A stretch of 64,000 bases of DNA. Source: Thiotrichaceae bacterium (lineage in GTDB: Bacteria > Pseudomonadota > Gammaproteobacteria > Beggiatoales > Beggiatoaceae). The position numbers and the translations under genes were made by a program. Position 1 is the stretch's first letter, and every line of letters starts with the position of its first letter. Below the pieces are notes generated by a model. The model searched no databases, was not told the DNA's origin, and saw only the letters and a list, made by a program, of their open reading frames with translations. Below, piece by piece: positions 2,655 to 31,800 of the stretch. The stretch covers positions 1 through 64,000 of the forward strand of contig JAQTYU010000017.1 of the NCBI GenBank assembly GCA_028688145.1, read 5' to 3'.

Positions 2655-2767
2655 ATCATTTCACTCGCCTTTCGGAGCGGGTATGGATTGAAACAAAACC
2701 TTATAAAGCTTATCTTTAAAGTCGTTAAGTCATTTCACCAGCTTTTAGGGCTGGTATGGATTGAAAC
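2655..2767 (+). CRISPR. Two CRISPR-like repeats with one spacer, no cas genes
   Basis: Two units of 40 and 39 bp are separated by 34 bp. Both start (A/G)TCATTTCAC and end GTATGGATTGAAAC, the typical 3' end of many type I/III repeats. The middle is a hairpin whose stem differs between copies yet stays paired: ACTCGC/GCGGGT in the first and ACCAGC/GCTGGT in the second. A third solitary unit is at 31677-31715. The second unit ends 17 bp before the pilT start codon. No cas gene or leader is recognised, so this is either a relic array or a hairpin element that looks like one. Confidence 0.4.
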
Positions 2768-2784
2768 ATGAACAGGATGATGAC

Positions 2785-3822
2785 ATGGATATTGGTGAAT
2801 TATTAGCCTTTGGTGTAAAAAACGGTTCTTCTGACTTGCACCTTTCCGCAGGGGTGCAGCCGATGATTCGCGTCAGCGGGGATATGCGACGCATCAATTT
2901 ACCTGCCTTAACCCACAGCGAAGTACGTGACATGGTGTATGACATCATGAACGACAAACAACGCAAAGATTATGAAAAATATTTAGAAACTGACTTTTCC
3001 TTCGAGATTCCAGGGCTTGCACGGTTTCGGGTCAACGCCTTCAACCAAAATCGGGGCGCGGGCGCGGTATTTCGTACCATTCCGTCGGTAATTATGAGCC
3101 TTGATCAGCTCAAAGCCCCACCCTTATTTAAGCAATTGGCAGAAACCCCACGCGGCATCGTGCTGGTGACAGGCGGTACAGGTTCGGGGAAATCCACCAC
3201 GCTTGCGGGCATGATGGACTATCGCAATGAAACCGAATACGGTCACATTCTCACCATCGAAGACCCGATCGAATTCGTGCACACCAGCAAAAATTGCCTG
3301 ATTACTCAGCGTGAAGTGCACCGCGACACCTTGGGCTTTGACAACGCACTGCGTTCTGCACTGCGCCAAGACCCTGACGTTATTCTCGTCGGTGAAATGC
3401 GTGACTTGGAAACTATTCGTTTAGCATTGTCTGCCGCAGAAACCGGACACGTCGTGTTCGGCACGCTGCACACCAGTTCTGCTGCCAAAACTATCGACCG
3501 TTTGGTTGACGTATTCCCCACCGCTGAAAAAGACATGATTCGTGCAATGTTATCCGAATCATTAAAAGCGGTGGTTGCGCAAACCCTGCTGAAAAAAGTC
3601 GGCGGTGGACGGGTTGCCGCCCATGAAATTATGATCGGCACGCCCGCAATTCGGAACTTAATCCGTGAAAATAAAGTCGCACAAATGTACTCCGCGCTAC
3701 AAACGGGGATGAAATTCGGGATGCAAACGCTTGATCAATGCCTGACTAATTTGCTCAAAGCTGGCATGATCACCAAAGAAGCTGCCCGCGAAAAAGCTGC
3801 CAATAAAGATACTTTTTCCTAA
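2785..3822 (+). CDS. pilT: Type IV pilus retraction ATPase PilT
   Basis: PilT is the hexameric cytoplasmic motor that disassembles type IV pili and so drives twitching. The 345 residues start MDIGELLAFGVKNGSSDLHL as in enterobacterial and pseudomonad PilT. Visible motifs are Walker A GGTGSGKST (about 131-139), the Asp box TIEDPIEF, Walker B ILVGEMRD, the His box GHVVFGTLHT, and the PilT-specific C-terminal AIRNLIRE, which is needed for retraction. The ATG at 2785 is preferred over the upstream TTG at 2761 because of AGGA eight bases before it and homology of the N-terminus. It is first in a three-gene tandem of related ATPases on the same strand. Confidence 0.97.
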   Translation: MDIGELLAFGVKNGSSDLHLSAGVQPMIRVSGDMRRINLPALTHSEVRDMVYDIMNDKQRKDYEKYLETDFSFEIPGLARFRVNAFNQNRGAGAVFRTIPSVIMSLDQLKAPPLFKQLAETPRGIVLVTGGTGSGKSTTLAGMMDYRNETEYGHILTIEDPIEFVHTSKNCLITQREVHRDTLGFDNALRSALRQDPDVILVGEMRDLETIRLALSAAETGHVVFGTLHTSSAAKTIDRLVDVFPTAEKDMIRAMLSESLKAVVAQTLLKKVGGGRVAAHEIMIGTPAIRNLIRENKVAQMYSALQTGMKFGMQTLDQCLTNLLKAGMITKEAAREKAANKDTFS

Positions 3823-3874
3823 GCGACTCGTCCACACGTTTAAGCTGACCTAATTCAACAAAGAGAGATTGATC

Positions 3875-5026
3875 ATGGAAAGAGATGAAGCCACGCAACT
3901 GATGATTAAATTATTACGGGTTCTGGTGAAAGAAGGCGGTTCTGACTTATTCATAACCGCAGGCTTTCCCCCCGCGATGAAAGTCAAAGGGAAAATGACC
4001 CCAATGATGCAGAAAAAATTGTCGGGCGAAGATGCCAAAGCCATGACTCAATGCATCATGAATGACCGTCAACTTAAAGAGTTTGAAGAAACCAAAGAAT
4101 GTAATTTCGCAATCGCCCCGCCCGGCACAGGACGCTTTCGCTGCAACGCTTTCATTCAGCAAGGCTGCCAAGGCTTAATTGCACGGGTGATTAATGCCGA
4201 AGTGCCCAATTTTGACAAGCTCGGTTTACCCGAGGTGTTGAAAGAAGTCATCACCGCAAAAAATGGTTTAATCATCATGGTGGGCGGCACGGGTTCTGGT
4301 AAGTCCACCACGATGGCGGGGTTAATTGATCACCGTAATTCAACTTCTTACGGACATATCATCACCCTCGAAGACCCGATTGAATATGTGCATCCGCATA
4401 AAAACTGCGTGATTACGCAACGTGAAATTGGGGTGGATACCAAAAGCTGGGAAGCCGCCTTACATAATACCCTGCGCCAAGCCCCTGATGTGATTCTGCT
4501 CGGGGAAATTCGGGATGCGGAAATTATGAACTTCGCGCTTGAATTTGCACAAACCGGTCACTTAGCGATGGGCACCTTGCACGCCAATAACGCTAACCAA
4601 GCCATTGACCGCGTACTGGGCTTTTTCCCGATTGAAACACAAAAGAAATTACGGTCAGACATCGCCTTAAACTTGAGAGCGATTATTTCGCAACGCTTAG
4701 TGCGGACACTGGACGGCGGGCGCTGTGCTGCCATTGAAATTCTCCTCAACTCTCCCTTAATTGCAGAAATGATTGTCAATGGCGACATCGGCGGGATTAA
4801 AACCGTGATGTCAAAATCCAAAGAGTTGGGAATGCAAACCTTCGATCAGGCCTTATTCGATTTTTATGAAGACGGACGCATCAGTCTGGACGAAGCTTTG
4901 AAAAATGCCGACGGCATGAACGAATTACGGTTGCGGATTAAATTGGAAGGCAAGGCCGCCAAAGGACGCGACGCGTTGTCAGGCTTGGAACACATGAGCC
5001 TCGCCGCAAAAACGGAAGAGAAATAA
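3875..5026 (+). CDS. pilU: PilU-type pilus retraction ATPase
   Basis: A 383-residue PilT/PilU-family ATPase. It has Walker A GGTGSGKST, LEDPIEYVH (Asp box), Walker B VILLGEIRD and the His box GHLAMGTLHANN. The AIRNLIRE motif of PilT is replaced by SPLIAEMIVNG, which together with the extended C-terminal tail and position after pilT points to PilU, the accessory motor working with PilT. The ATG at 3875 follows AAGAGAGAT. The gene lies 52 bp after pilT and is probably co-transcribed. Neighbouring pilB, pilC and pilD are not in the window. Confidence 0.9.
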   Translation: MERDEATQLMIKLLRVLVKEGGSDLFITAGFPPAMKVKGKMTPMMQKKLSGEDAKAMTQCIMNDRQLKEFEETKECNFAIAPPGTGRFRCNAFIQQGCQGLIARVINAEVPNFDKLGLPEVLKEVITAKNGLIIMVGGTGSGKSTTMAGLIDHRNSTSYGHIITLEDPIEYVHPHKNCVITQREIGVDTKSWEAALHNTLRQAPDVILLGEIRDAEIMNFALEFAQTGHLAMGTLHANNANQAIDRVLGFFPIETQKKLRSDIALNLRAIISQRLVRTLDGGRCAAIEILLNSPLIAEMIVNGDIGGIKTVMSKSKELGMQTFDQALFDFYEDGRISLDEALKNADGMNELRLRIKLEGKAAKGRDALSGLEHMSLAAKTEEK

Positions 5027-5110
5027 ACGTTCTGCTATAGGGCGAGCGAGGCACTTCTTCTATCAGGAGAAGACGATTTTGTGAACGTGATGAAGGAAGC
5101 GTAATACCCT

Positions 5111-6568
5111 ATGGATGTTGTCCCTTACTTAAAATTAATGCTAGAAAAGAATGGTACGGAAATGTCGATGATGGTCGGCGCGCCGGTGCGGATGAAATTG
5201 GCAGGACAAGAAAAAGCCGTGCCCGTGGGCAAGGCGGTTTTAACTGCCGAAATGACGCAAGCCGCCGCCTATCGCATCATGACACAGGCACAGATTAAAC
5301 AATTCGAGCAACAAAAAAAGCTCGATTTCTTGCTAAAAATGCCCAGCGGCGGTGGACAATTTAAAGTTCAAGCACGTTTGGATGGGCAGCAACAGATTTT
5401 AATGATGTTTGGAATAGTGGCAGCCACAGGTGAGGATGCCCCTACCAAACCCGCGCCTGTCAGCGTCAGCAGCTCAGAACCCGCTGCCGATGGGGACATC
5501 ATCAGCAGTTATGATCTTTTGGATTATTTACGGATTATTATTCGACGCGAAGGTTCGGACTTATTCTTAACTTCAGGCTCACAAATTAAAGCCAAAATTC
5601 AGGGCACGGCAATTGCGCTGAGCACCTTCGTTGCCACGCCAGAAATCACGAAGAAAATGGCGTATTCGATCATGAATGATGAACAGATCGAACAATTTGA
5701 AAGAACCCGCGATCTCGACTTCGCAATTGCGATGCCTGATGGCAGTGCGCGGTTTCGGGCCAATGCGTTTTTCCAACGTCGCACCGTGGGCATGGTGTTC
5801 CGTTTCATTCCTTCAAAAATTCCAAACGCCCAAGAAATGAATTTGCCCGAAATTTTGCTAGAACTGATTATGGCAAAACGCGGCTTATTATTAATGGTGG
5901 GCGGTACAGGTTCGGGGAAATCAACCACTTTGGCGGCAATGATTAATCACCGCAATGCGAATTCTCCGGGGCATATTTTGACCATTGAAGACCCGGTGGA
6001 ATTTTCACATCCTAATCAAATGTCGATTGTGAATCAGCGCGAAGTTGGCGTGGATACTGCTTCTTATGCGGCAGCGATTAAAGCCTCGTTGCGTGAAGCT
6101 CCCGATGTGATTTTAATTGGGGAAATTCGGACAGAAGAAACGATGGAAGCGGCATTGGAATTGGCAAACACGGGGCATTTGTGCATTTCGACCATGCACG
6201 CCAACAACGCCAACCAAGCAATGGATCGTTGTATCAATATGTTCCCGACGGCAAAACATAAGCAATTATTTATGGATATGTCGGCAAATATTCGCGCGGT
6301 GATTTCGCAGCGACTCGTGCCTGATGTGCGCGGCAAGCGGGTGGCTGCCATTGAAATCATGATTAATACGCCGCATATTGCGCAGCTCATTATGAAAGGG
6401 CAGTTGAACGATATTAAAGAAGCGATGTCAAGTAGCGGCGCACGCGGGATGCAGCCGTTCGATAATGCACTTTTTCTTTTATATAAAGAGGGCAAAATCA
6501 GCCTTGAAGAAGCTTTGAAAAATGCGGACTCTCGGAATGACTTGGAAGGTAAGATTAATTTCGGTTAA
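5111..6568 (+). CDS. PilU-like ATPase with duplicated N-terminal domain
   Basis: 485 residues, about 100 more than PilU. Residues about 1-105 are a degenerate copy of the PilT/PilU N-terminal domain (YRIMTQAQIKQFEQQKKLDF, with FKVQARL). A Pro/Ser-rich linker follows (about 115-135). A second, regular copy then begins (YSIMNDEQIEQFERTRDLDF, RFRANAFFQRR) and leads into the RecA-like core. The core has Walker A GGTGSGKST, TIEDPVEF, Walker B ILIGEIRT and GHLCISTMHANN, so ATPase activity should be intact. TPHIAQLIMKG replaces AIRNLIRE, as in PilU. It is third in the operon, 84 bp after pilU. The extra domain may bind pilus platform proteins or regulate hexamer assembly; that is inference. Confidence 0.88.
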   Translation: MDVVPYLKLMLEKNGTEMSMMVGAPVRMKLAGQEKAVPVGKAVLTAEMTQAAAYRIMTQAQIKQFEQQKKLDFLLKMPSGGGQFKVQARLDGQQQILMMFGIVAATGEDAPTKPAPVSVSSSEPAADGDIISSYDLLDYLRIIIRREGSDLFLTSGSQIKAKIQGTAIALSTFVATPEITKKMAYSIMNDEQIEQFERTRDLDFAIAMPDGSARFRANAFFQRRTVGMVFRFIPSKIPNAQEMNLPEILLELIMAKRGLLLMVGGTGSGKSTTLAAMINHRNANSPGHILTIEDPVEFSHPNQMSIVNQREVGVDTASYAAAIKASLREAPDVILIGEIRTEETMEAALELANTGHLCISTMHANNANQAMDRCINMFPTAKHKQLFMDMSANIRAVISQRLVPDVRGKRVAAIEIMINTPHIAQLIMKGQLNDIKEAMSSSGARGMQPFDNALFLLYKEGKISLEEALKNADSRNDLEGKINFG

Positions 6569-28803: not shown

Positions 28804-30639
28804 ATGTGCGGCATTATTGGTGCAGCGGCAGAACGTGATGTAGTTCCGATTTTAATCGAAGGATTGAAACGCTTAGAATACCGTGGCTATGATTCTGCGG
28901 GCTTGGCAGTGATTGATTATCCCAGTCACACTTTGGAACGCTTACGGGTTATCGGCAAAGTCGAAGTGCTGGAAAAATCGCTGAAACAAACTTCATTGTG
29001 CTCACCAATTGGCATTGCTCACACCCGCTGGGCAACTCACGGCAAACCCAGCCAAGAAAATGCACATCCTCATATTTCCCGCGACACTATCGCCGTGGTG
29101 CACAATGGCATTGTTGAAAACTATGCGCCATTGAGAAGCTTGCTCGAACAACGCGGCTATGAATTCACCTCCGAAACCGATACTGAAGTCATCGCACATT
29201 TGATTCATTATTACAGTCAGCAAGGCATGAAACTCACGCAAGCCGTGCAAACCAGTTTGCAAGAGCTGAGAGGCAGCTATGCGATTGCAGTGATTAGCAT
29301 GTTAGAACCCAATTCTGTGGTTGCGGCACGGCGCGGCAGTCCTTTGGTGATTGGAGTTGGGATTGGTGAAAACTTTGTGGCTTCTGATGTGGCGGCGTTA
29401 ATTCCTGTCACGCAGCGCGTGATTTTTTTAGAAGAGGGCGATTTAGTCACCCTGCAACGCGATAATTATCAAATTCTTGATTTTTCAGGAACGCCCGTTA
29501 CTCGTCCAATTCATGTCAGCCAATTACAAGCCGATGCAGTGGAACGCGGCACCTATCGCCATTACATGAAAAAAGAAATTTTTGAGCAGCCCCGCGCTTT
29601 AGCAGAAACTTTGGGCAATCGGATTCATAATGGCAAAGTTTTAGAAGCTTCTTTCGGACATCATGCACAACACTTATTTGATAAAGTCGAAAGTGTGCAA
29701 ATCATTGCCTGTGGCACCAGTTATCATGCGGGTTTGGTGGCGCGTTATTGGTTGGAAAGCATTGCGAAAATTCCCTGTACGGTCGAAGTTGCCAGCGAAT
29801 TCCGTTATCGCCAACCCTTACCCAATCCCAAAGCTTTGGTGGTGACGATTTCACAATCAGGTGAAACAGCGGACACCTTAGCTGCCTTACTTGAAGCCAA
29901 GCGTTTGGGTTTTGGTCCAAGTTTGAGCATTTGTAATGTGCCTGAAAGTTCCTTAGTGCGTGCCTCGGATATGGTGTTAATGACCCATGCAGGCCCCGAA
30001 ATTGGCGTGGCTTCGACGAAAGCATTTACCACTCAATTATTAGCTTTATTGCTGCTGTGCGTGGTTTTAGGCAGACGGCACGGACTCAGTGCGGCACAAG
30101 AAGCTGAGATTGTTCATGCAATGGAAACCTTGCCCGGCGCGATAGAAAAAGCACTCGGACTGGATAAGCAGCTTCAAGTGTTAGCCGAACGTTTTGCGGA
30201 TAAACATCACACTTTATTTTTAGGGCGCGGGATTCATTACCCCATTGCAATGGAAGGCGCGTTAAAGCTTAAGGAAATTTCTTATATTCATGCGGAAGCT
30301 TATCCTGCGGGCGAACTTAAGCATGGACCTTTGGCATTAATTGATAATGATATGCCTGTGATTGCAGTCGCGCCAAATGATGCTTTACAGGAAAAATTAA
30401 AATCGAATCTGCAAGAAGTTCATGCACGCGGCGGACAATTATTTGTGTTTGCAAATCATCGGGCAGTGCTGCCCGCTTCGGAATTTTTAGAAATTATCGA
30501 ACTTGGCGAAGTCAATGAAATAATTTCCCCAATTGTCTATGCCGTCCCGCTACAATTATTAGCTTATTACGTCGCTTTGATTAAAGGCACAGATGTCGAT
30601 AAACCCAGAAACTTGGCAAAATCGGTGACGGTAGAATAA
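28804..30639 (+). CDS. glmS: Glutamine-fructose-6-phosphate aminotransferase
   Basis: 611 residues, full length. The N-terminal glutaminase starts MCGIIGAA, with catalytic Cys right after the removed Met, and has [11 protein letters not shown] and HTRWATHG. Two SIS isomerase domains follow ([29 protein letters not shown]), with C-terminal [13 protein letters not shown]. It makes glucosamine-6-phosphate, the entry to peptidoglycan and LPS precursors. GGGGAAAG precedes the start. glmU is not in the window. Confidence 0.98.
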
Positions 30640-31480: not shown

Positions 31481-31800
31481 CAAGCAAACACAGTTTTAAA
31501 AATTTGCTTATACGACTACAATCTCAGGTTCATCAAATTTCCTTACGGGTCTGAAACTTTTCCTTTCGGGGGAAAAGCTTGACTAGACGGCGATGCGTTA
31601 GTATCGTTATCGTTTCGATAAATTCCTCGTCTCTGGGGAGATAATCCATCGCTCCCTATGTCGGTGACTATCGCTAAAAAATCACTGGACTGATAAAGTC
31701 CAGTATGGATTGAAATAAACATAAGCGATCACGAGTTGCTTAGATCACCAAAATTTTCCCACAACTAAGCCAGTGGGATACCCCTAAGGAAGGAGTCAAC
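31481..31800. other. lpd upstream region with hairpins and one CRISPR-like unit
   Basis: No gene. CTTTTCCTTTCGGGGGAAAAG (about 31556-31577) can form a hairpin. At 31677-31715 a solitary unit has AATCAC, stem TGGACT/AGTCCA and the tail GTATGGATTGAAAT, matching the repeats at 2.65-2.77 kb in layout. A strong ribosome site (AAGGAAGGAG) closes the region. Confidence 0.5.

Follow-up and report, generated by a model that had tools for sequence, protein, structure and literature searches.

Two diverged type I-C CRISPR repeats upstream of a pilT-like gene in a Thiotrichaceae bacterium: a probable ectopic mini-CRISPR

CRISPR repeats outside arrays have been described in several forms. Ectopic repeats that have diverged are a typical feature of CreTA (excerpts of PMC9458426), CreR has been reported from type I systems (parts of a review, PMC12737573), and a type I-C Racr, one of the solitary repeat units or RNA anti-CRISPRs that mimic repeats, is known (excerpts of PMC10651486). 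In type I-C systems Cas5c processes the crRNA and holds its 5′ handle, which is 11 nt long (U1-C11; excerpts of PMC7684278), and TTC is a PAM tested for type I-C in Xanthomonas (excerpts of PMC8406640). Here, we compare with these systems two CRISPR-like hairpin units that an earlier note had pointed out in DNA of a Thiotrichaceae bacterium. They lie in the window, the whole stretch of 64,000 nt analysed here, which represents contig C30 of a genome of 3.63 Mb. The locus comprises the following features:

2658..2694, plus strand: unit 1 (psi-repeat 1), 37 nt, with 4 substitutions relative to the array repeat, all within the hairpin, and an intact handle TGGATTGAAAC
2695..2731, plus strand: spacer of 37 nt (array spacers 32-39 nt)
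2732..2767, plus strand: unit 2 (psi-repeat 2), 36 nt, 1 base shorter, with the array-like stem ACCAGC/GCTGGT and an intact handle
2785..3822, plus strand: gene which we take, from its sequence, to encode a pilT-like ATPase, its frame extending without a stop back to TTG 2761, which lies in unit 2

Both units were confirmed where the earlier note had placed them and the last one indeed ends 17 nt before the pilT start (ATG 2785), but array-style borders lead to 37 and 36 nt and to a spacer of 37 instead of 34 nt. Unit 1 (ATTTCACTCGCCTTTCGGAGCGGGTATGGATTGAAAC, 2658-2694) and unit 2 (ATTTCACCAGCTTTTAGGGCTGGTATGGATTGAAAC, 2732-2767) keep the array flanks ATTTCAC and GTATGGATTGAAAC, follow each other with a period of 73-74 as in arrays, and have the loops CTTTCGG and TTTTAGG. 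Of the 7 stem positions of the array, 6 are paired in unit 1 (ACTCGC/GCGGGT) and all in unit 2, there with one wobble, and the folding z values are −2.0 and −3.2, respectively. In both units the hairpin is followed by the 11-nt handle UGGAUUGAAAC, as expected for a type I-C repeat; the handle letters of I-C repeats in other species are general background to this assignment. A scan of the window for ungapped 37-nt repeat matches, with templates that included both pilT units themselves, gave these units as the best places (37/37 and 35/37), the next unrelated place reaching 22, and the window has exactly two occurrences of GGTATGGATTGAAAC. No match at the gathering score was obtained for the units in Rfam, and an Rfam identity for 10 loci was discarded as only miRNA and snoRNA matches at chance level appeared. 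Two palindromic repeats with the ends TAGGAGTTACGC(A/G)GTTGAAAT are found at 152-269 and 2330-2462 of the window, one of them shortly upstream of the units, and are likely a small mobile element. Downstream, three pilT/pilU-like ATPase genes are arranged in tandem (2785-6568).

The genome encodes a type I-C system of its own. On contig C31, cas3, cas5c, cas8c, cas7c, cas4 and cas1 form a locus, with Cas1c, Cas4, Cas7c, Cas8c, Cas5c and Cas3 each scoring above the cut-off in one or more NCBIfam models, and are followed by an array in which ATTTCACCAGCCTTTCGGGGCTGGTATGGATTGAAAC is repeated exactly 77 times; a second array, in two parts, is located on C14. The array parts examined contain 123 distinct spacers of 32-39 nt. 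The flank GTATGGATTGAAAC is present in 328 exact copies in the genome vs 0 for a reversed control pattern; places are known for 100 of the 328, and mini-units may exist among roughly 146 reverse-strand copies without a known place (223 in total, less the 77 of the C31 array). Therefore, the CRISPR kinship proposed before is borne out by the same flanks in the long arrays of this genome, and the term 'orphan' has to be abandoned. Related units elsewhere and paired stems, on both of which the earlier note had made its claim depend, are present, as these 328 copies, the cas-side array and the pairing of the stems show. Judged by flanks, loop type, spacer length and handle, all as in the arrays, the pilT units are members of the CRISPR-repeat class; the 'new hairpin element' considered as an alternative fits a separate dispersed family whose 3′ end has this hairpin and handle too (see below).

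The units resemble a type I-C array in handle, hairpin, spacer length and the presence of I-C cas genes in the genome, but differ from it as they consist of only two repeats, unlike each other and unlike the array repeat, lie away from the cas locus and lack similarity to a leader (score 12 vs a shuffled mean of 11.2). Promoter signals at the units were not above chance (1 found, 2.5 expected). From these sequence features, the pilT units are probably an ectopic, leaderless mini-CRISPR of the bacterium's own I-C system that acts, or once acted, as a guide, a reading to which we give a probability of about 0.52. A guide job outside arrays is favoured because handle and hairpin are intact although the repeats are no longer identical. 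If the units are transcribed, Cas5c would be expected to cleave both hairpins at their base, which would yield one crRNA-like RNA carrying the 11-nt handle and the 37-nt spacer, a guide that would work outside arrays like those of CreA and CreR; transcription, cutting and use are all predictions in this scheme. The mini-CRISPR belongs to an already known kind, and any link to pilT is hypothetical.

A genome-wide search for the spacer seed next to a TTC PAM, allowing up to 2 mismatches in 16 bases, led to 0 matches at 0 or 1 mismatch and to 11 at 2 mismatches, including the spacer itself, vs 14 for the reversed pattern. The spacer was also not recovered among the 123 distinct spacers of the examined array parts, the best score of 10 being equalled by 180 of 200 shuffles. 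The comparison with phages that had been suggested gave no hit at E < 0.1 and no exact match in IMG/VR, and the pilT-like stem pattern had 0 matches in viral contigs. A plasmid search with the unit region returned one short match of 32 nt to a Malaciobacter plasmid (E 0.01). Like CreA and CreR guides, which consist of one or two diverged repeats outside arrays (excerpts of PMC9458426 and PMC12737573), the pilT units stand apart from the arrays, but differ from them in that neither a seed-plus-PAM target, be it only a partial one in a cas promoter or a promoter close by, nor a toxin was found. Only tiny ATG ORFs of 25-57 aa occur near the units (1887-2760), none recognised as a toxin gene, and creT has no searchable sequence signature. 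Unlike in CreTA, neither psi-repeat is clearly more diverged (4 substitutions in unit 1, about 3 changes in unit 2). As repeat mimics the pilT units would recall Racr, from which they differ in having two repeats instead of one and in their surroundings, where inspection by eye noted no phage genes.

The CreR-like case of this genome is found at cas3 instead. Between cas3 and cas5c (C31:361490-361655), a unit with a 5-bp stem, one base and TGGATTGAAAC has its handle at C31:361609-361619, followed by a guide starting with ACGTTATGTTT. TTC-ACGTTATGTTT recurs on the opposite strand at 361526, 94 nt away and still within this intergenic region, with 11/11 bases and the TTC matched. For 14 fixed bases in a region of about 600 bp, counted on both strands, simple arithmetic leads to a chance expectation of about 5e-6, with the match spotted before the scan. 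By its sequence, this unit is a candidate CreR-like guide.

Pattern searches omitting the array stem revealed few units of this class: besides the pilT pair, a single one on C15 and another in a prophage on C14; the patterns required TCAC, or in one search a non-T base, and other variants may escape them. The C15 unit (29907-29943) has the stem ACCCATC/GATGGGT with three double-changed pairs, and 15 of the 16 first bases of its 'spacer' recur 87 nt upstream behind CTT. At C15:29857-29965 this lone I-C-like unit is flanked on either side by a near-copy (about 18 of 21 bases) of the end of the glyoxalase-like gene, which may reflect a guide target or a local duplication. On the minus strand of the prophage, C14:284517-284623 carries two I-C-like repeats separated by a 33-nt spacer, the second hairpin, GTTCACCCACC...GGTGGGT, following 33 nt after the first unit and having a broken tail. 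This pair, which was not seen in the compared part of the IMG/VR phage, is a candidate mini-CRISPR or RNA anti-CRISPR, and fits Racr better than the pilT units do. Two further matches were dropped, C14:285458 because phage coding sequence continues through it and C14:313390 because it is a prophage/repeat junction. The prophage itself (C14, approximately 277.4-313.4 kb) is Mu-like, with a transposase and a DNA transposition protein assigned by PHROGs, and is inserted inside a CRISPR repeat with GGTATG at both sides. When searched by the phage ends alone, only the contig IMGVR_UViG_3300009419_000038 was found. There, identical phage ends stand inside this repeat sequence at a different position, bordered on either side by CTTTCG, and the array is a different one with other spacers, indicating a second, independent insertion; both known sites (2/2) are thus in CRISPR repeats.

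The relic already mentioned in the earlier note is retained as a live rival. The units would then be what is left, decayed and now functionless, of an array that this system once had, and their differences drift, which we regard as possible but doubtful, with the guide slightly favoured over it. The array-like period and spacer length are what a remnant would show, and target, leader and promoter signal were not found; on the other side, both handles are intact, the changes of unit 1 are confined to the hairpin with 0 in the 17 flanking positions, and the upstream region is without further degraded repeats. A suspected third repeat 73 nt upstream (GCGGGT at 2604-2609) was rejected, as the best upstream place reaches 18/37 and a rank of about 528. 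The statement that the stems differ and yet remain paired holds as a description, but random substitutions in the 20-nt hairpin retain as many pairs as unit 1 in 26% of trials, and in 7% when a double change is also required. The corresponding P values for pairs kept plus double changes are 0.07 for unit 1, 0.0001 for the C15 unit, and 0.02 and 0.002 for the prophage pair, so that stem preservation is weak for unit 1 alone (P 0.07-0.26) and stronger in the other ectopic units. Pair 4 is C-G in all four ectopic units compared (unit 1, the C15 unit and the prophage pair) and A-T in the array; the array A-T may therefore be derived, and the changes are not independent events. This also speaks for the relic, as the four units may share one older repeat, and with such descent unit 1 loses its only double change.

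It is improbable that a unit serves as a Cas5c cut site in the pilT 5′ UTR, setting mRNA level or translation. Unit 2 does lie on the coding strand close to the ATG and the I-C processing enzyme is encoded in the genome, but such a site needs no repeat-spacer-repeat layout, the other ectopic units are placed otherwise (the C15 unit roughly 200 nt upstream of typA and the prophage pair behind a stop codon), and the motif GGTATGGATTGAAAC was found in 0 of 56 relatives, all from outside the genus. Nothing found favours the control or processing site at pilT that the earlier note had raised.

A dispersed hairpin element of another class than the pilT units has one degenerate copy in the window:

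31632..31716, plus strand: degenerate copy of the dispersed element (model R1, E 6.2e-6), local hairpin 7/7, long hairpin 6/14, with a CRISPR-repeat-like 3′ end, separate from the pilT units

The element is about 180 nt long, extends from TTCATC to GAAAC and contains serial hairpins. Its long hairpin is closed by AATCCA/TGGATT, and the right arm of the latter in turn forms a small hairpin bearing the I-C tail, a handle that the family may have borrowed or may meet by chance. Model R1 matched 36 places in the genome (for example C17:67401-67478) and 17 in a Methylovulum MAG, compared with 0 of 56 relatives and 0 of 41 other family members, overlapping sets under strict filters; the tail pattern had 0 matches in viral contigs. 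The Methylovulum copies have an identical tail and, by reading, most show a mismatch close to the base of the stem. The small hairpin keeps at least 5 of its 7 pairs in 38 of 38 copies compared, while the long hairpin is down to 10 of 14 pairs or fewer in 13 of 38; because the search patterns behind most of these copies demanded the tail, its constancy is partly a selection of copies. Double changes in the two small hairpins were not in excess of shuffles (2 pairs vs 3.6; covariation equalled by 26 of 500), and the long hairpin fared better (0 of 500, with shuffles that ignore relatedness). An ORF of at least 90 aa starts within 160 nt of one element end in 32 of 35 cases, a bias that is weak because random window sites reach 208 of 300; the location outside ORFs of at least 150 aa is clearer (27 of 30 vs 65 of 300). 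A purely sense 5′-UTR role is contradicted by antisense copies before divergent genes. AAAC tandem runs follow some copies, and start codons often adjoin either end.

From the roughly 40 intergenic elements with hairpin and handle at their 3′ end, one might suppose that this module is in wide chromosomal use and Cas5c a general RNA processor at many sites, pilT included, which we likewise consider improbable. That the pilT units are members of the dispersed family is most unlikely: they have the tail GTNTGGATTGAAAC and the TCAC-stem design in common with it, but model R1 matches the window at 31632-31716 only, their loops and tandem layout are array-like, and the AATCCA left arm is missing.

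Stray repeats show that CRISPR systems are put to non-defence uses. In this one genome, the long arrays, a candidate CreR-like guide at cas3, the probable pilT mini-CRISPR, the repeats of the prophage and a dispersed family that shares their handle occur together, and such co-occurrence would let a single organism tell which hairpins the I-C nuclease cuts, and what their role is.
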